Of a DNA stretch of 64,000 nt, positions 54,715 through 64,000 are shown in pieces. Where the stretch lies: positions 1 through 64,000 of the forward strand of contig JAQTMR010000005.1 of the NCBI GenBank assembly GCA_028714255.1, written 5' to 3'. The notes under the pieces were generated by a model that searched no databases, had not been told where the DNA came from, and was given only the letters and a program-made list of their open reading frames with translations. The first letter of the stretch is position 1. Each line of letters begins with the position of its first letter. The DNA is from Phycisphaerae bacterium (GTDB lineage: Bacteria > Planctomycetota > Phycisphaerae > Sedimentisphaerales > Anaerobacaceae). Position numbers and translations under genes: made by a program.

Positions 54715-54755
54715 ACTTTGGTATAAGTGCAAGCCTATTGCAAAGGAAAGTATTT

Positions 54756-55748
54756 ATGTTGAATGATAAAACAATTTTGATTACGGGTGGGACAGGTTCA
54801 TTCGGCCAGGCATTTGTGAAGAAGATACTCGCTGCCTATAAGCTGCGAAGAATCATTATATATTCGAGAGACGAATATAAGCAATATATGATGTGCAAGA
54901 AATTTACCGGCCATGAGGGACGATTGAGGTTTTTTCTGGGTGATATAAGAGATAAGAGCAGACTCTTGAGGGCTTTCGAAGGGGTGGATTATGTTGTGCA
55001 TGCCGCGGCCCTGAAGCAGGTTCCCGCGTTGGAATATAATCCGACTGAAGCGGTTAATACGAACGTGATGGGTGCAGACAATATAGTTGATGCCGCCATA
55101 GATAAAGGTGTGAAAAAAGTCGTAGCTCTTTCGACGGACAAAGCAGTTAATCCCATAAATCTGTACGGGGCAACGAAATTAGTCGCTGAAAAGATATTCA
55201 TAGCGGCGAATGCTTACGGCGGCGGCAGAGTTAAATTTTCGGTAGTCAGGTACGGCAATGTTATGGGGTCGCGAGGAAGCGTTATACCTTTCTTTATGGG
55301 TCTAAAAAACAGCGGCGTCAAAGAATTTCCCATAACCGATGAAAGGATGACCCGCTTTTGGATTACGCTGGAACAGGGGGTTGACCTTGTGCTGAAAGTT
55401 CTTGAAGAGGCAGAGGGCGGGGAGATATTTATTCCAAAGATTCCTTCTATGAATATAACCGATTTGGCAAAGGCGATTGAGCCGAACTGTACATTCAGAT
55501 ATACGGGGATAAGGCCCGGCGAAAAACTTCATGAAAGCCTGGTTTCGTATGACGAGGCACGCAACGTCAAGGAATTTGACGGTGTATATGTGATTCTGCC
55601 CCAGTTTTTCGAAAACCAGAAGGTCTGCAAAAAATACGATAAGTATCCTTCAGTTCCCGAAGGTTTTGTTTTTTGCAGCGATGGGAATGAAATGTATCTG
55701 AGTTGTGATGAACTTAGAAAAATAATAGAGGAAATGGAAGTTGGATAG
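54756..55748 (+). CDS. pseB: UDP-GlcNAc 4,6-dehydratase (inverting), PseB-like
   Basis: Begins pseudaminic acid synthesis: UDP-GlcNAc to UDP-4-keto-6-deoxy-L-AltNAc. 330 residues, extended SDR: TGGTGSFGQAFVKKIL, FLGDIRDKSRL, VHAAALKQVPALEYNP, ALSTDKAVNPINLYGATK and YGNVMGSRGSVIPFF are the PseB/FlaA1 pattern. The CapD/PglF non-inverting group is a longer membrane protein. The ATG of MLNDK is used with AAAGGAAAG upstream. Its end overlaps pseC by eight bases. First gene of a nonulosonate operon running to the window end. Confidence 0.92.
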   Translation: MLNDKTILITGGTGSFGQAFVKKILAAYKLRRIIIYSRDEYKQYMMCKKFTGHEGRLRFFLGDIRDKSRLLRAFEGVDYVVHAAALKQVPALEYNPTEAVNTNVMGADNIVDAAIDKGVKKVVALSTDKAVNPINLYGATKLVAEKIFIAANAYGGGRVKFSVVRYGNVMGSRGSVIPFFMGLKNSGVKEFPITDERMTRFWITLEQGVDLVLKVLEEAEGGEIFIPKIPSMNITDLAKAIEPNCTFRYTGIRPGEKLHESLVSYDEARNVKEFDGVYVILPQFFENQKVCKKYDKYPSVPEGFVFCSDGNEMYLSCDELRKIIEEMEVG

Positions 55749-56901
55749 ATTCATACCTTATGGCCACCAGAGTATAGAAGAAGATGACATCCGGGCCGTC
55801 GTTGAAACGCTGCGGTCCGATTTTCTTACACAAGGGCCCAAGGTGAAAGAGTTCGAGGAGTTGCTTGCCTCGTATTGCGGAGCGAAATATGCGGTGACAT
55901 TTTCTTCCGGGACGGCTGCGCTTCACGGTGCTTACTTTGCAGCCGGGGTTGGTGATGGGGACGAGCTAATAACATCTCCGCTTACTTTTTTGGCGACGGC
56001 CAATGCGGCCCTGTATTTGGGAGCTAAACCGGCATTTGTTGACATTGAGCCGGATACAGGCAACATTGACGCCGGGCTGATTGAGTCAGTGGTAACCGGC
56101 AAAACCAAGGTAATAGCGCCGGTGCATTTTGCCGGTCATCCTGCGGAGATGGAAAGAATAGCAGGTGTTGCCAAGAATCATAATTTGATAGTGATAGAAG
56201 ACGCCTGCCATGCTTTGGGGGCGAAATACAAAAACACAACCATCGGGGACTGTAAATACTCGGCTATGGCGGTATTCAGCTTTCATCCGGTTAAGTCAAT
56301 TACAACGGGAGAAGGCGGTGCGGTCTTGACGAATAGCAAAGAATATTATGAGAGGCTTGTTGTGTTCAGGCAGCACGGTGTTACAAAGGCCGACGATGCT
56401 TTTGTCAATAAAGACGAGAACGCCGGCCAATGGTATTATCAGATGCAGCACTTAGGCTATAATTACAGGCTGACGGATATTCAATGTGCGCTGGGGATTT
56501 CGCAGCTTAAAAAACTCGATAAATTTATCAGGGGAAGAAAACGTGTGGCAGACTCTTATAACCGGGCCTTTAAGGACAATTCCTTTTTTGATTTACCTGT
56601 AGAAAAAGATGGTGTGGAATCTGCGTGGCACCTGTACGCTATAAGATTGAAGGATGCGTATAAAAGTTCGAAGAAAAAGATATTCGAAGAATTACGTTTG
56701 CGTCAATTAGGTGTTCAGGTGCATTATATTCCGGTACACCTTCAGCCATACTATCAGCAGCTTGGTTACAGCAGGGATTTGTGCCCAAGAGTGAAGGATT
56801 TTTACGAGAGGCAAATCAGCATACCAATATACCCGGCGATTACTGATGAGGATATTGAGTACGTTATAAACAATATTCTGGACGTGCTTAAACACAGTTA
56901 A
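55741..56901 (+). CDS. pseC: UDP-4-amino-4,6-dideoxy-L-AltNAc transaminase, PseC-like
   Basis: PLP aminotransferase of the DegT/DnrJ/EryC1 family, 386 residues. PYGHQSIEEDDIRAVVETL at the start, TFSSGTAALHGAYFA, IEDACHALGAKY, the PLP lysine in FSFHPVKSITTGEGG, and YNYRLTDIQCALGISQL fit PseC. It uses a TTG start inside pseB with GAGGAAATGG upstream. Product is UDP-4-amino-4,6-dideoxy-N-acetyl-L-altrosamine; the next step, PseH acetylation, has no gene in the window. Confidence 0.92.
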   Translation: MDRFIPYGHQSIEEDDIRAVVETLRSDFLTQGPKVKEFEELLASYCGAKYAVTFSSGTAALHGAYFAAGVGDGDELITSPLTFLATANAALYLGAKPAFVDIEPDTGNIDAGLIESVVTGKTKVIAPVHFAGHPAEMERIAGVAKNHNLIVIEDACHALGAKYKNTTIGDCKYSAMAVFSFHPVKSITTGEGGAVLTNSKEYYERLVVFRQHGVTKADDAFVNKDENAGQWYYQMQHLGYNYRLTDIQCALGISQLKKLDKFIRGRKRVADSYNRAFKDNSFFDLPVEKDGVESAWHLYAIRLKDAYKSSKKKIFEELRLRQLGVQVHYIPVHLQPYYQQLGYSRDLCPRVKDFYERQISIPIYPAITDEDIEYVINNILDVLKHS

Positions 56902-56929: not shown

Positions 56930-57583
56930 ATGGGAAAAACAACTGAACAAATTCGCATGTGGACAGGAGCTTTTGGTAAAGAATATACCGACCGCAATGC
57001 CCTTACCACGGAGCAGATGGACGAGGCATATAAGAAGCTTTATGGTGTAACCGGCACAGAGTTGTATCAGGAATTCCTGGGCGGTATGGATCGCTCGATC
57101 AAAATACTGGAGGTCGGTTCCAATATCGGCAACAAGCTGCTGGTGCTTCAGGGGCTGGGGTTCAGGAATTTGTATGGTATCGAGATAAGTAGTTATGCCA
57201 TTGAGCGAGCCAAAGTTAACACCAAGGGGATTAATATCATTCAGGCCAGTGCATTTGATATTCCTTTTAAGGATGGCTATTTTGATATTGTATTCACAGC
57301 CGGGGTTTTGATTCATATTGCGCCAGCAGATATAACAAGAGCACTTAAGGAGATACACAGGTGCAGCAGGGAGTATATCTGGGGGACTGAATATTACGCT
57401 GATAGTTATACCGAGGTCGAATACAGAGGGAACAGCAATCTCCTCTGGAAAACGGACTTTTCGAGTTTGTATCTTAATTCATTCGAAGATTTGGAACTTG
57501 TCAAAGAAAAGAAACTGAAGTATCTGGATAATGAGAACGTAGATACGATGTATCTTCTGAAGAAAGTCAAAGGTTCCAATTAA
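56930..57583 (+). CDS. Pseudaminic acid biosynthesis-associated methylase
   Basis: 217 residues, a class I methyltransferase found next to pse genes. Start TTEQIRMWTGAFGKEYTDRN is diagnostic of this small family; motif I is ILEVGSNIGNKLL (Ser-Asn in place of the usual Gly-Gly), with IIQASAFDIPFKDGYFDIVF and VLIHIAP. It is thought to methylate the nonulosonate or a precursor, but the reaction is unproven. Its stop overlaps the next ATG (TAATG), so the radical SAM gene is translationally coupled. Confidence 0.88.
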   Translation: MGKTTEQIRMWTGAFGKEYTDRNALTTEQMDEAYKKLYGVTGTELYQEFLGGMDRSIKILEVGSNIGNKLLVLQGLGFRNLYGIEISSYAIERAKVNTKGINIIQASAFDIPFKDGYFDIVFTAGVLIHIAPADITRALKEIHRCSREYIWGTEYYADSYTEVEYRGNSNLLWKTDFSSLYLNSFEDLELVKEKKLKYLDNENVDTMYLLKKVKGSN

Positions 57584-59574
57584 TGCACAGTCGTGGTGGC
57601 AAGTTGAAAATTTATTTATGCGATCTGGTCTATGACACCATAATGACGAATTATGTTGTGCCTTTGAATATTGGATATATTGGTTCAAGTGTTAAAGAAA
57701 AATATGCCGAGCAGGTAGATATTACAATTTTTAAGTATCCTAAGCAGCTCGAGGAAGCACTGCGTAATGTGCCTCCTGATATTCTCGGTTTAAGTCATTA
57801 CAGCTGGAACGACAGGCTCGACAATCTTTTTCTCAAGATGGTCAAACAGCTGAATCCGGATGTGATAACCGTAATGGGCGGTCCTCACATCAGAACTGAC
57901 GCGGACGGCATTAAGAACTACCTTACATCGCATCCTGCCCTTGATTATTATATTCCCTACGAGGGTGAAGAACCTTTTTCGGAGCTTGTTGGTGAAATTC
58001 TCGGAGGTTGTGGTTCGGAGAAGCCACCATGCGGTTGTGCCAGGATTATCGAGGGTGAGCTTATTTTTGAGCCGGTAATTTTTAAGGAGAAACCGAAAAT
58101 CATTGATTTGCCAAGTCCATACCTGTCAGGCTTGTTAGACCCTTTTCTGGCTGATTCTAAAATGATACCACTTTTAGAGACCAACCGCGGTTGTCCCTTC
58201 GGATGCGTGTATTGTACGTGGGGGATTGCGGCCCTTTCGAGAGTCCGCCAGAGAAAGCTTGATGTGATTTATGAAGAGATAGACTATGTTGCGGAAAAAT
58301 CTGTTGGGCAGGTCAACTGGATATTCTGCGATGCAAACTTTGGGATATTGCCTCGGGATTTAGATATAGCAAAAAGAGTTCGCAAAGTAATGGACAAGAA
58401 AGGGTATCCAATCAACGTGACGTTATGGCATTCCAAAAATACAGGCCAACGAAACGTTGAGATTGTGAAGGCTATCGGAGCCAAGGCAGGGAATATAGCC
58501 ATTCAGTCGGCTGATCCGGCAGTACTTGAGAATTGCGGGCGGGGTAATATTAAAGTAGAGGAGATAAGGAAACATATTACCTATTACAAGGACAGTAACT
58601 TAAAAGTTGCGACGGATATTTTGATAGGCCTGCCTGGCGAAAACGCTGAAAGCCATTTGCGAACACTTAATGAAGCGTTTGATATGGGTTTCGACCGGAT
58701 ATATCCATATAACATACGGTTGTTACCCGGTTCAAGATATGAAACCCCGGAATTCCGGCAAAAATACGGAGTGAAGACAAAATACAGACCTATTTTCGGT
58801 GCTTACGGTGTTTACGACGGGGAAATTGTGCTGGAAGTCGAAGAATCGGTTCGAGCTACGAACTCGATGACGGAAGAACAAATGGATGATTTTAAGGTGC
58901 TTCACTGGCTGATTTATTTTTGCTGGAATTCAGGTGTTTTTAAACCTGTTCTACTGTATGCACAGAAATGCGGATTAAACCCAGCAGCAATTTTACAAGC
59001 GGTTTCTTCGTCCAAGAATCGTCAGCCAAGAGAGTTATTCGATGATATGAAGAGCAAATCGATGGGTGAGTGGTTTCAATCGCCGGCCGAAATGGTCGAA
59101 TTCTACGGGGTGAAGGAAAACTATGAGAAATTGGTCGGCAGCTTTGCCAAACTGAATCAGCTTTATATTGCAATCGCTTACCAGAGGCCTGAGGTTGTTC
59201 AGAGTTTGCAAGATGAGATAATAGAAGTTGTAAGTACAGAGCTTAAAGCAAAAGGGTTGTATGACGAAGCTATTATGTCACTACTTGCAGATTTTTCCAG
59301 CAGGCTGGTTTGTAAAGATTTTTTACAGGGGGAATTTCATTTAAGGCGTAAATATCCGGGCGAGTTTTGCTCAATCGTGTTTAATGACATGAAACTGCTG
59401 GAGAAAGAGACTGTGGAGACGGAATTTTGTTTCCCTGAAGAGTGTGCAACCTTTTGCGAATTTCATTTAAAGCCTAACGGCCACAAAGACCTTTCCCTGC
59501 CGAACCTTGCGCGTTTTCTTGAGATTGGCGGAATGAATATGCTGACCAACAGGGTACAGGTAATCAGTAACTGA
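57583..59574 (+). CDS. B12-binding-domain radical SAM protein
   Basis: 663 residues. N-terminal Rossmann/B12-binding-like domain (1-140; VMGGPHIRTDADGI but no DxHxxG ligand), radical SAM core with NRGCPFGCVYC (Cys204, 208, 211) and a long C-terminal helical domain (about 430-663) with no recognised family. Relatives perform C-methylation or other difficult carbon chemistry on sugars, peptides or lipids; product not predictable. Placed between the Pse methylase and the cytidylyltransferase, so it probably modifies the nonulosonate, its glycan or the protein carrier. Confidence 0.85.
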   Translation: MHSRGGKLKIYLCDLVYDTIMTNYVVPLNIGYIGSSVKEKYAEQVDITIFKYPKQLEEALRNVPPDILGLSHYSWNDRLDNLFLKMVKQLNPDVITVMGGPHIRTDADGIKNYLTSHPALDYYIPYEGEEPFSELVGEILGGCGSEKPPCGCARIIEGELIFEPVIFKEKPKIIDLPSPYLSGLLDPFLADSKMIPLLETNRGCPFGCVYCTWGIAALSRVRQRKLDVIYEEIDYVAEKSVGQVNWIFCDANFGILPRDLDIAKRVRKVMDKKGYPINVTLWHSKNTGQRNVEIVKAIGAKAGNIAIQSADPAVLENCGRGNIKVEEIRKHITYYKDSNLKVATDILIGLPGENAESHLRTLNEAFDMGFDRIYPYNIRLLPGSRYETPEFRQKYGVKTKYRPIFGAYGVYDGEIVLEVEESVRATNSMTEEQMDDFKVLHWLIYFCWNSGVFKPVLLYAQKCGLNPAAILQAVSSSKNRQPRELFDDMKSKSMGEWFQSPAEMVEFYGVKENYEKLVGSFAKLNQLYIAIAYQRPEVVQSLQDEIIEVVSTELKAKGLYDEAIMSLLADFSSRLVCKDFLQGEFHLRRKYPGEFCSIVFNDMKLLEKETVETEFCFPEECATFCEFHLKPNGHKDLSLPNLARFLEIGGMNMLTNRVQVISN

Positions 59575-59624: not shown

Positions 59625-60467
59625 ATGCGAATAGGAGCTATCGTTCAAGCGAGGACATCTTCGACAAGGCTGCCGGGCAAGATTCTAATGGAACTGCCTT
59701 ACGGCGGCGGCGTAACTGCTTTGCAGCAGGTAATAAGAAGGTTAAAAAAATCGAAACGGCTGGGAGATATTATAGTTGCCACAACCACGGACGAGATAGA
59801 CGAAAAAATAGCCGGGTTAGCTGAGAAGGAAGACGTCAAATGGTTTAGGGGAAGTCCGGATGATGTATTGTCACGGTATTACCTGGCCGCAGAAGAAAAT
59901 GGTCTGGATATAATTGTGAGAATTACCAGCGACTGTCCGTGCACAGACCCCGGAATAGTGGATTGGGTGCTGGAAGAGCACCTGACTGCAAAAGCTGATT
60001 ACACATCAAATGGGCTGCGCAGAACATTTCCGGTTGGTATAGACGTAGAGATATTGAACTTTGAGGCGCTTAAGAAAGCTCATTTCGAGGCTGTGGAAGC
60101 TTTTGAAAGGGAACATGTTAGTCCGTACATATACAAGAGTAAGCCACATATGTTCAAAATCTGTGGAGTTCAGGCACCTGAGAAATTTTATGGTCCTGAT
60201 ATAAGAATTACGCTCGACACGAAAGAGGATTACACCCTGCTATGTGCGGTCTTCGATTGCCTCTATCCGGCAGATAAATTTTTTGGAATCGAGGACATCA
60301 TGAAGCTGTTTCGTGACAAGCCCTGGTTAGGCGATATTAACAAGAATGTGATTCAGAAAAAGATATTTGATTCGGTGGAGCAGGAGATTGAAGAAGCGGT
60401 GGGGATATTGGATTTGCAGGGTCTTAAACGGGCCAAGAAGTTTTTGGCGGAACATCTTCATAAATGA
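59625..60467 (+). CDS. SpsF/PseF-type cytidylyltransferase
   Basis: 280 residues. IGAIVQARTSSTRLPGKIL is the CTP-binding start typical of SpsF and PseF/NeuA-like enzymes; RITSDCPCTDPGIVDWVL carries metal-binding Asp residues, and YTSNGLRRTFPVGIDVEIL is characteristic of SpsF rather than PseF. The spore-coat SpsF family is often adjacent to pse genes and probably acts as the CMP-sugar synthetase. No ribosome site was found, but spacing to upstream and downstream genes is short. Confidence 0.85.
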   Translation: MRIGAIVQARTSSTRLPGKILMELPYGGGVTALQQVIRRLKKSKRLGDIIVATTTDEIDEKIAGLAEKEDVKWFRGSPDDVLSRYYLAAEENGLDIIVRITSDCPCTDPGIVDWVLEEHLTAKADYTSNGLRRTFPVGIDVEILNFEALKKAHFEAVEAFEREHVSPYIYKSKPHMFKICGVQAPEKFYGPDIRITLDTKEDYTLLCAVFDCLYPADKFFGIEDIMKLFRDKPWLGDINKNVIQKKIFDSVEQEIEEAVGILDLQGLKRAKKFLAEHLHK

Positions 60468-60551: not shown

Positions 60552-61571
60552 ATGTCAAAGGGAAAACATAATGAAGATGCCGGCATTTCTGTTCTTTTTC
60601 ACGTTGAGGCAGGCGAGACTATAGGATTAGGCAACCTTTGCCGTTGCCGCTCCCTTGCGATTGAATTTATAGAATGTGCGGGTGCTGCTGTTACTGTGTC
60701 GTGTACGCGAAAAGACCTTGCACAATCCTCCTTAGGAGAATATGGAAGCAAGGTTGTTTGCCTTCAGCAGATTCCTGACAAAACATTTTTCGATGTGATA
60801 GTTATTGATGTTCCAAATTGTAGTTTAGAAGTACAGCAATCCCTAAAAAAAAATTGCAAGCTCCTTATCGGAATTGATGATTGGGGTATGGGGCCATATG
60901 TTTATGATATAATCATAAGACCGAATGTTTTAAATCTGAGCCGGCCTCAACTTCTCGAAGCGAACGCACAGATATGGCAGGGTAAAGACTACGTCATTCT
61001 CCATCCTGCATACGCAAAATTAGATATTACTTTTAAAGAGAAAGCAGAAGAAGTTCTGGTTTGCTTTGGCGGCAGTGACCCCTCAGGGCTTACTTTGCAG
61101 GTTCTGCCTATTCTGCTGCAAATTCTGTTTGGGGAAATCAAGGTTAATGTTGTCGTTGGAATGGAATGTGCCCAGTACGAGAAGATATGTAACTTAATAC
61201 AAGGCCACAGAAACATCGAAGTATTCCAGAGTCTGCCGAATTTGGCGGGGTTATTCAACGTTTGCGATACGGCTATTGTGTCAGGCGGGACATTGCTTTA
61301 TGAAGCGTGTGCCCTTGGTATTCCCGCTGTGGCTCTGGCACAGGAAACGGAGCAGCATGAGGAAACGAAAGTGTTTGCTGAAAAACAGGCCGTTCTCAGG
61401 CCTGAGGGTGGTTTGTATGCATCTGACGATGCGATTTCTAATGATATACAAAAAGTCTGCTTTAATACTGATGTTCGCAGGATGTTGTTTCAAAATGCCA
61501 AAGAGTGTGTATCGCGTGATGGTACACAGCGCATTGTGAAAAAGATAGTATGTAGCTTGGATGTGGATTAG
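60552..61571 (+). CDS. PseG-like UDP-sugar hydrolase homologue lacking the catalytic His
   Basis: 339 residues, GT-B fold like MurG. PseG normally removes UDP from UDP-2,4-diacetamido-trideoxy-altrose. The N-terminal motif should be IGxGHxxRC; here residues 24-31 read IGLGNLCR, with Asn28 where His17 of the Campylobacter enzyme is the general base, and the preceding RxD is HVE. The rest is typical: CFGGSDPSGLT, GHRNIEVFQSLPNLA, VSGGTLLYEACALGIPAVAL. Activity is doubtful, or the chemistry differs (for example a binding or transferase role). Normal size, so not a decaying gene. Confidence 0.82.
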   Translation: MSKGKHNEDAGISVLFHVEAGETIGLGNLCRCRSLAIEFIECAGAAVTVSCTRKDLAQSSLGEYGSKVVCLQQIPDKTFFDVIVIDVPNCSLEVQQSLKKNCKLLIGIDDWGMGPYVYDIIIRPNVLNLSRPQLLEANAQIWQGKDYVILHPAYAKLDITFKEKAEEVLVCFGGSDPSGLTLQVLPILLQILFGEIKVNVVVGMECAQYEKICNLIQGHRNIEVFQSLPNLAGLFNVCDTAIVSGGTLLYEACALGIPAVALAQETEQHEETKVFAEKQAVLRPEGGLYASDDAISNDIQKVCFNTDVRRMLFQNAKECVSRDGTQRIVKKIVCSLDVD

Positions 61572-61685: not shown

Positions 61686-62474
61686 ATGCGTAGAATGGAA
61701 CAAGGAGATGCGAAAAAAAAGAAGATTGAGGTTCTTAGCTACAGCAAGACCGAAGAAGTTTCAATGAGAAAAAAGTTCTTGTCTTATTTTAAAAATTGTC
61801 CTATCCCTGACGAAGAAATCCTCTCTAATTTGGGATTATTTTTAAACAGACAAACTTTGTCACGGATGCTTTTCATGCACGAATTATACAAGCAGATAAT
61901 TAACGTTCATGGAATAATAGTTGAATTTGGAGTTAGATGGGGACAGAATCAGGCCCTGTTTTCTTCTTTTAGAGGGATGTATGAACCGTACAATTACAAT
62001 CGAAAAATAGTCGGTTTTGATACTTTCAGCGGCTATCCTGAAGTTTCCGATGAGGATGGGAATAACGAATTCATAAAGAAGGGAGCTTATAGCGTAACAG
62101 AGAACTATGAAGAATATCTTGAAGTGATATTGGATTATCATGAGAAAGAAAGTCCTATCTCCCATATAAAGAAGCATGAATTGGTAAAAGGAGATGCAAC
62201 CGTTGAAATAAAGAGGTATTTAGACGAAAACCCTGAAACAATTATAGCATTAGCATATTTTGACTTTGATATATATCCGCCTACAAAAAAATGTCTGGAG
62301 GCAATAATTGAAGGGGGACATGTCACAAAAGGAAGTGTAATAGGTTTTGACGAGTTAAACTGTCATGAATTCCCGGGAGAAACACGGGCGCTAAGGGAAG
62401 TTTTAGGATTAGATAAATATAAAATCAGGCGGGACGTATCGAATCCACTGACCTCATATATTGTAATCGAGTAG
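61686..62474 (+). CDS. TylF/MycF-like O-methyltransferase
   Basis: 262 residues. The domain begins near residue 60 and has GIIVEFGVRWGQNQALF (motif I), VGFDTFSGYPEVSDEDG, KGDATVEIKRYL and IALAYFDFDIYPPTKKCLEA with the metal-binding Asp pattern FDFD of the macrocin-O-methyltransferase group. Such enzymes methylate sugars of macrolides and, in surface clusters, glycan residues. CAGGAG lies seven bases before the ATG. GC is lower than in its neighbours, suggesting a separate origin. Confidence 0.8.
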   Translation: MRRMEQGDAKKKKIEVLSYSKTEEVSMRKKFLSYFKNCPIPDEEILSNLGLFLNRQTLSRMLFMHELYKQIINVHGIIVEFGVRWGQNQALFSSFRGMYEPYNYNRKIVGFDTFSGYPEVSDEDGNNEFIKKGAYSVTENYEEYLEVILDYHEKESPISHIKKHELVKGDATVEIKRYLDENPETIIALAYFDFDIYPPTKKCLEAIIEGGHVTKGSVIGFDELNCHEFPGETRALREVLGLDKYKIRRDVSNPLTSYIVIE

Positions 62475-62543
62475 GAAAGTGAAAAGGTAACTCACATATA
62501 GCTGTTTCAGCAAAATAAAAAATTCAGATATTTTTTGGCAGTC

Positions 62544-63605
62544 ATGGACATTAAGAAGCAGAACTTACAACCCTATAGTTTACCTAAAACAGAGGTCAGG
62601 CCTTTGTACGAGCTTCTTCCTTTTTCTGTCCCGTATTCTATGCATATTGACCCGGCGAATATTTGTAATTTCAGATGTAAGTTTTGCCCGACCGGTGATG
62701 ACAAGTTGTTAAAATCTATAGGTCGGCCGAAGGGTGTTATGAGCTATGAGTTGTATTGCAAGATTATTGACGACCTCAAGCTCCTGGTAGAAAAATTTGG
62801 TGATAAGTTAAAGAGACTTCATTTGTACAAGGACGGCGAGCCACTTATCAACAAAAGATTGGGTGAGATGGCTTATTATGCCAGGCAGAATCAGGTTACC
62901 ATGTCTATCGAAACCACATCAAACGGGGCACTGTTGACCGAAGAACGGGCCATCGAGTTGATTGAAGGGGGTTTTGATATAATTCGTATTTCTATAGAAC
63001 ATGTTACCTCAGAGGATTACAAAAGAATAACAGGTACTTACTCGGATTATGAGCAGATTAAAAAGAACGTGGCTTTTTTATATAAAGAAAGTGAGCGGAG
63101 GGGCGGCCGGTTAAAAATTCATACCAAAATTCTTGATGTCGGACTGAGCACTGCGCAAAAAGAGAAATTTATGGAGGATTTCGGTGCTGTTTCCCATACG
63201 ATTAATATAGACCAGTTAATGGGCTGGTCAAAATCAGGTACCAAGGACTTCACATTAGGAGTTTCAAGCTCGACCGGCATGAATGGTTTTAGCATGTTAA
63301 GAGACAGAAAGGTATGCCCGGAGGCTTTTTCCAAGCTCGCAGTGAACTTTGACGGGCGGGTATCCGTTTGTTGTGTGGATTGGAGTTATGGAACTATTGT
63401 TGGGGATTTGCGGAGTCAATGTCTGGCAGATGTATGGAACGGGCCCTTACTTCGGCGTTTCAGGTTGTTGCATTTACGAGGAGAGCGGAGAAAAATAGAG
63501 GCGTGTGCCGACTGTCAATACTTAATGGGTTTCCCTGAATATACAATGCTTGATGGTAAGGCTGAAGAATTACTTAAGATATACTCTGATATGGCGGGTT
63601 TATAA
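62544..63605 (+). CDS. Radical SAM protein with SPASM domain
   Basis: 353 residues. The core motif is CNFRCKFC (Cys41, 45, 48 after IDPANI), and the C-terminal SPASM region has CPEAFSKLAVNFDGRVSVCC and CADCQYLM, the extra cluster ligands. Family members modify peptides, sugars or anaerobic enzymes; the presence in a nonulosonate cluster suggests sugar dehydration or epimerisation. ATG at 62544 is chosen; a TTG three codons earlier is possible. It lies directly before the truncated methyltransferase gene (ATG at 63606, next base after the stop). Confidence 0.87.
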   Translation: MDIKKQNLQPYSLPKTEVRPLYELLPFSVPYSMHIDPANICNFRCKFCPTGDDKLLKSIGRPKGVMSYELYCKIIDDLKLLVEKFGDKLKRLHLYKDGEPLINKRLGEMAYYARQNQVTMSIETTSNGALLTEERAIELIEGGFDIIRISIEHVTSEDYKRITGTYSDYEQIKKNVAFLYKESERRGGRLKIHTKILDVGLSTAQKEKFMEDFGAVSHTINIDQLMGWSKSGTKDFTLGVSSSTGMNGFSMLRDRKVCPEAFSKLAVNFDGRVSVCCVDWSYGTIVGDLRSQCLADVWNGPLLRRFRLLHLRGERRKIEACADCQYLMGFPEYTMLDGKAEELLKIYSDMAGL

Positions 63606-64000
63606 ATGGATATGAAAGCAAGTTGGGACGATTTACATAAATTGCCGAGGTTCAGGCCTCAGTACCCGAACGAAGGTGTAGTCAGATTTTTATTTACTAA
63701 CTTTCCGACAAATAAGGAAAAAAGAAAAAATATTAAGATATTGGACCTCGGTTGTGGAGGCGGCAGACACGTAAAATTATTTGCCGAACAGGGATTTGAT
63801 ATAAGTGGTGTTGACTTCTCAAAGGAAGCAATAACCTATGTGAAAGAGATGCTAAAAAAACTCAATTTAAGCGCTGAATTACAGCAGGCAGATATGACCA
63901 ATCTGCCCTACGAGGACGATTCTTTTGACGGCATAGTCTCATTCGGTGTTTTTTATTATTCAGATTCTGCCGGTGCAAAAAAAGCAATAGACGAATTGCA
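63606..64000 (+). CDS. Class I SAM methyltransferase, 5' part
   Basis: Starts immediately after the SPASM gene stop and runs off the window with no stop. Starts MDMKASWDDLHKLPRFRPQY, then SAM motif I ILDLGCGGGRHVKLFAEQG, GVDFSKEAI, MTNLPYEDDSFDGIV and SFGVFYYSDS. This is the Methyltransf_11/25 type common in glycan clusters. It would be the fourth methyltransferase in the nonulosonate region and surroundings. Confidence 0.88.
   Translation, partial: MDMKASWDDLHKLPRFRPQYPNEGVVRFLFTNFPTNKEKRKNIKILDLGCGGGRHVKLFAEQGFDISGVDFSKEAITYVKEMLKKLNLSAELQQADMTNLPYEDDSFDGIVSFGVFYYSDSAGAKKAIDEL

Follow-up and report, generated by a model that had tools for sequence, protein, structure and literature searches.

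PseG splits UDP off an intermediate in the synthesis of pseudaminic acid, a bacterial surface sugar, and the substrate of PseI is a free sugar. In C. jejuni PseG, His17, Tyr78 and Asn255 are presumably the active-site residues that were studied in the structure of the enzyme; a check of the numbering on the sequence gave His, Tyr and Asn, respectively, at these three positions. PseG-type genes also serve other sugars, as shown by the requirement of spsG for legionaminic acid in B. subtilis, in a UDP-based pathway (PMC7439481). Regarding the use of Asn in place of a catalytic base, the inverting GT-B enzyme POFUT1 has no base and employs a tautomerising Asn, with Asn-to-Ala and Asn-to-Asp mutants being dead (PMC8631701).

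The window, a stretch of 64,000 nucleotides from a Phycisphaerae bacterium (source assembly of 2.41 Mb, 98.9% complete, in 39 contigs), contains part of a pseudaminic-type gene cluster (Table 1) that includes an open, full-length ORF of 339 amino acids whose translation includes ...HVEAGETIGLGNLCRCRSLA.... The gene content, a PEP-CTERM protein among others, likewise points to a phycisphaeral planctomycete. Comparison of its product with the PseG profile TIGR03590 revealed a clear match (E 1.4e-37), with a score of 129.8 bits that is under the curated equivalog cut-off of 153.55 bits. In addition, Asn28 aligns with the catalytic His17 of C. jejuni PseG (3hbm; phmmer E 7e-10), and the His/Asn column was identical in three alignments of differing composition. 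The sequence-only reading of this DNA had proposed a full-length PseG homologue with Asn at the position of the catalytic His, and both the profile match and the alignment with 3hbm, as well as the intact ORF, bear it out. It had also considered that an aligned His might be supplied from a shifted position; none was found within the motif of the PseG-like protein, and the residue that is His17 in its own numbering lies in the first strand, in a column that is usually Arg. The features of PseG equivalogs that this protein lacks are the His of the IGxGH motif and the counterparts of Tyr78 and Asn255 of the C. jejuni enzyme.

Table 1. Features of the PseG-like gene and its cluster. Positions are those of the window unless a contig (C5) is named.
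Feature	Position	Strand	Evidence or remark
PseB, UDP-GlcNAc 4,6-dehydratase (inverting)	54738..55748	+	TIGR03589, 494 bits, cut-off 407.75
PseC, transaminase	55741..56901	+	TIGR03588, 522 bits, cut-off 423.5
Pseudaminic-acid-associated methylase	56930..57583	+	TIGR03587, 191 bits, cut-off 112
B12-binding radical SAM protein, KedN5-like, possible C-methyltransferase	57583..59574	+	best NCBIfam 180 bits, cut-off 700
SpsF-like cytidylyltransferase, in the place of PseF	59625..60467	+	PF02348, E 2.1e-25
PseG-like protein, triad Asn28/Pro88/Glu267 for His17/Tyr78/Asn255	60552..61571	+	profile match, alignments, GT-B model
AAC, Asn28, catalytic-His position	60633..60635	+	translation, alignments
CCA, Pro88, Tyr78 position	60813..60815	+	translation, alignments
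GAG, Glu267, Asn255 position, beside invariant Gln268	61350..61352	+	translation, alignments
Putative class I methyltransferase, TylF-like by eye	61686..62474	+	L092 homologue, E 1e-51
Radical SAM/SPASM protein	62535..63605	+	PF04055, PF13186
Methyltransferase gene, start only (runs past window end)	63606..64000	+	
WbqC	C5:64268-64981 (L010 4268-4981), beyond window		adjoins PseI
PseI	C5:64985-66082, beyond window		TIGR03586, 461.7 bits, cut-off 340.25
KpsF-type arabinose-5-phosphate isomerase	C5:66112-67179 (L010 6112-7179)		after PseI

A structure model obtained from five aligned sequences showed a GT-B fold (pLDDT 75.8, pTM 0.76); a model from the single sequence was poor (pLDDT 37.9) and was left out of the analysis. 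Foldseek comparison of the model with known structures gave the C. jejuni PseG-UDP complex 3hbn as the best match (E 1.2e-11), the top matches being the UDP-bound and UDP-free forms of that enzyme. VIA-align placed many GT-B enzymes at similar Z values (18-20) and therefore does not single out PseG. Residues G173, G174, D176, E251 and Q268 of the UDP pocket, together with Asp86, were invariant in an alignment of 11 proteins that included the PseG-like protein. The invariance of the UDP pocket, combined with the altered triad, suggests that the nucleotide site has been kept and that the residues facing the sugar and the water have changed. The protein is related to C. jejuni PseG, carries the UDP-site residues GG.D/E251/Q268 and is encoded together with PseB, PseC and PseI, all of which assign it to the class of PseG-like proteins.

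Just one further PseG was found in the genus, in genome G001 (locus L094); it is canonical (His/Tyr/Asn) and lies in a syntenic cluster. The levels of identity between both clusters were 68.8% for the methylase, 66.5% for SpsF, 72.1% for PseI and 63.3% for KpsF, in contrast with 20.4% for PseG, and the PseG-like gene stands where PseG does in the genus-mate's cluster, between SpsF and PseI. The genes lying between PseG and PseI also differ between the two genomes, and the putative TylF-like methyltransferase, for which no Pfam match was found, falls in this differing region. Given neighbours that are 63-72% identical and a PseG that is only about 20% identical, the simplest account would be a swap of the PseG slot and the neighbouring tailoring genes, rather than loss of the His from a resident PseG. 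The description of a single His-to-Asn codon change in an otherwise intact PseG was misleading, since identity to the same-genus syntenic PseG is so low and Tyr78 and Asn255 have also been lost (replaced by Pro88 and Glu267, respectively).

Homologues with Asn at the catalytic-His position, which the sequence-only reading had suggested looking for, do exist in another phylum. When one genome per species (84,980 species) was scanned with a DNA pattern encoding the Asn form of the motif, 22 stretches matched, two of which (L060 and L063, both from Bacteroidales) correspond to true PseG homologues; this pattern would detect about 44% of the His-type PseGs in the sample (34/78), so it misses some. 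L060 and L063 are 44% identical, and each of them is the sole PseG of its genome. Both loci show the order PseB-PseC-PseF-PseG-PseI, accompanied by genes for an epimerase and an ATP-grasp enzyme and lacking PseH, and L082, a relative in the same type of cluster, has kept the His. Peptide patterns retrieved no close homologues of the PseG-like protein from the genome collection, a broader survey of the class did not turn up any Asn-bearing relative that is closer, and no match was obtained in phages. To judge from the sequences surveyed, Asn at this position is plainly rare.

In a tree built with the three trait columns masked, Asn requires two changes, and the rows carrying it formed one group in 0 of 200 bootstrap trees. 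L060 and L063 nest with the His-bearing L082 (100/100), apart from the PseG-like protein, which sits on a long branch without a close relative in a tree whose deep branches are weak. A single Asn clade was not formally rejected by the AU test (p 0.096), and two origins of Asn are favoured by these sequences, not proven.

Other substitutions in the motif were also observed. At locus L024 (G398:C30:4731-5249), a PseG-like protein carries Asp where the catalytic His would be (GTGDLLSC; triad Asp/Thr/His), and the short contig that encodes it has no PseI, PseB or PseC. The Arg of IGxGHxxR is replaced by Glu in L035 (GHLLEC) and by Gln in L082 (GHIYQS).

The covariation of the triad was surveyed in 85 aligned PseG-like proteins (82 + 3). 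The Tyr78/Asn255 pair was present in 62/85, and His17 was kept in every one of these (62/62); the remaining 23 proteins showed 19 His, 3 Asn and 1 Asp at position 17, counts that are biased because the Asn-targeted search, itself blind to positions 78 and 255, supplied two of the Asn proteins and the PseG-like protein was the starting point. Among 49 loci, PseH was found nearby in 20/31 with the pair vs 0/18 without it (Fisher P 3e-6), in 16/21 vs 0/5 when loci with a strong PseI match were considered (P 0.004), and WbqC in 2/31 vs 7/18 (P 0.008), these P values being rough since the loci are kin by descent and several lie on short contigs. Furthermore, some canonical PseGs, that of the genus-mate included, also lack a nearby PseH, and the association is confounded by phylogeny and by clusters for other nonulosonic acids. 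Among the loci lacking the pair, many encode divergent PseI and PseC proteins, and their products may be nonulosonic acids of other kinds.

A search of the PseG-like gene's own cluster revealed no PseH, and elsewhere in the genome only weak GNAT matches were obtained. A literature search for WbqC as a known acyltransferase gave nothing useful. Several further observations concern the composition of these clusters. Both genomes of the genus have the KpsF-type isomerase after PseI (L094 10933-11982 in the other one). A B12-dependent radical SAM protein, perhaps C-methylating the sugar, is present in pseudaminic-type clusters of the family (57583-59574 of the window; L093; L094 8356-10449). In PseH-less clusters of Bacteroidota, an ATP-grasp gene accompanies PseG and PseI (L060 6214-7347, L063 2923-5031, L083 4793-6001); its product, fused to the epimerase in L063, may attach another group to the 4-amine.

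The search for another hydrolase included a second PseG, as the sequence-only reading had advised; none was found in the genome, and the other weak match, L013, was rejected because it is MurG. The PseG-like protein itself does not qualify as MurG (TIGR01133, 26.9 bits vs a cut-off of 250.25). A NeuC-type hydrolase was found neither in the source genome nor in G542, and G543 gave a weak match below the cut-off. As PseI needs a free sugar, some hydrolase must act, and the PseG-like protein is the candidate at hand. The sequence-only reading had left two alternatives for the protein; hydrolysis carried out in a different way fits better, because of the need of PseI and because no PseG-type or NeuC-type alternative was found, whereas a sugar-binding or glycosyltransferase-like component fits worse.

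The explanation that we favour, and consider moderately probable, is that the PseG-like protein is a working UDP-sugar hydrolase with a changed substrate site, acting in a variant pseudaminic-type (nonulosonic acid) pathway. Sequence, conservation, synteny and the lack of a known alternative are observations, while the hydrolysis, its substrate and the action of Asn are inferences; the requirement of PseI, the precedent of the POFUT1 Asn and the fact that spsG serves another sugar all point in this direction. In such a pathway, PseB and PseC would produce UDP-4-amino-4,6-dideoxy-L-AltNAc, which would then be decorated by something other than PseH. The PseG-like enzyme would next free UDP from the decorated sugar, PseI would add three carbons from phosphoenolpyruvate, and the SpsF-like enzyme would activate the product with CMP. 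A divergent relative, along with the neighbouring tailoring genes, would have displaced the lineage's canonical PseG, with the UDP pocket being kept and His17/Tyr78/Asn255 changing to Asn/Pro/Glu to fit the substrate. Asn28 may hold the nucleophilic water in place or pass on its proton, in the manner of the POFUT1 Asn, perhaps with the help of Glu267.

It could be argued from the change of all three triad residues and from the long branch that the PseG-like protein no longer hydrolyses and now serves in binding, as a scaffold or in regulation, with UDP being released by another enzyme. We consider this unlikely, as no second PseG or NeuC-type enzyme was found in the genome, the UDP-site residues are conserved, and the two Asn-PseGs, despite being only 44% identical, keep the Asn in clusters that need the step. 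That function was lost recently, or that codon 28 was miscalled, is less likely still: AAC is one base from CAC and the gene is known from a single assembly, in 39 contigs, but the ORF is intact, the other two triad changes would be left unexplained, and Asn is independently present in the Bacteroidales homologues. Finally, a conversion into a glycosyltransferase that transfers the sugar moiety from UDP to an acceptor would suit the GT-B fold and the structural matches to MurG and other transferases, but it is very improbable in a protein far under the MurG cut-off (26.9 vs 250 bits) that takes the place of PseG between SpsF and PseI in the syntenic cluster, in a genome where PseI needs free sugar and the searches revealed no further hydrolase.

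If the PseG-like protein is an active hydrolase, as we favour, a UDP-sugar hydrolase thought to need His would run on Asn, a rare choice among GT-B enzymes. In that case, the loss of Tyr78 and Asn255 would be a sequence mark for clusters of nonulosonic acids that are not acetylated by PseH, and this mark could help to find new surface sugars. More tentatively, there might exist a class of PseG-like hydrolases without the catalytic His, in which Asn, with at least two origins, would act through amide tautomerisation or the positioning of water on UDP-sugars whose decoration comes from enzymes other than PseH, marking clusters for undescribed nonulosonic acids.

Compared with known systems, the PseG-like protein shares with C. 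jejuni PseG (3hbm, 3hbn; UDP-2,4-diacetamido-2,4,6-trideoxy-beta-L-altropyranose hydrolase) the GT-B fold, the UDP-site motifs, the IGxGxxxR motif and a cluster with PseB, PseC and PseI, and it differs in its identity of about 20%, the replacement of His17, Tyr78 and Asn255, the sub-equivalog score and the lack of a nearby PseH. The Bacteroidales proteins L060 and L063 resemble it in the Asn at the His position, the loss of the Tyr/Asn pair, their status as sole PseG and a PseB-PseC-PseF-PseI cluster without PseH. On the other hand, they are 23-24% identical to it, lie separately on the tree and have an ATP-grasp enzyme and an epimerase as neighbours, instead of WbqC and radical SAM proteins. 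By its description, B. subtilis SpsG is also similar, being PseG-type, needed for a nonulosonic acid and partnered by an spsF gene, in a pathway that differs in its SpsM, SpsC, SpsD and SpsE components (PMC7439481). As for POFUT1 (GT65), it is an inverting enzyme of GT-B fold that relies for catalysis on an Asn instead of a base (PMC8631701); in contrast, it is a protein O-fucosyltransferase for which no family relation is claimed.
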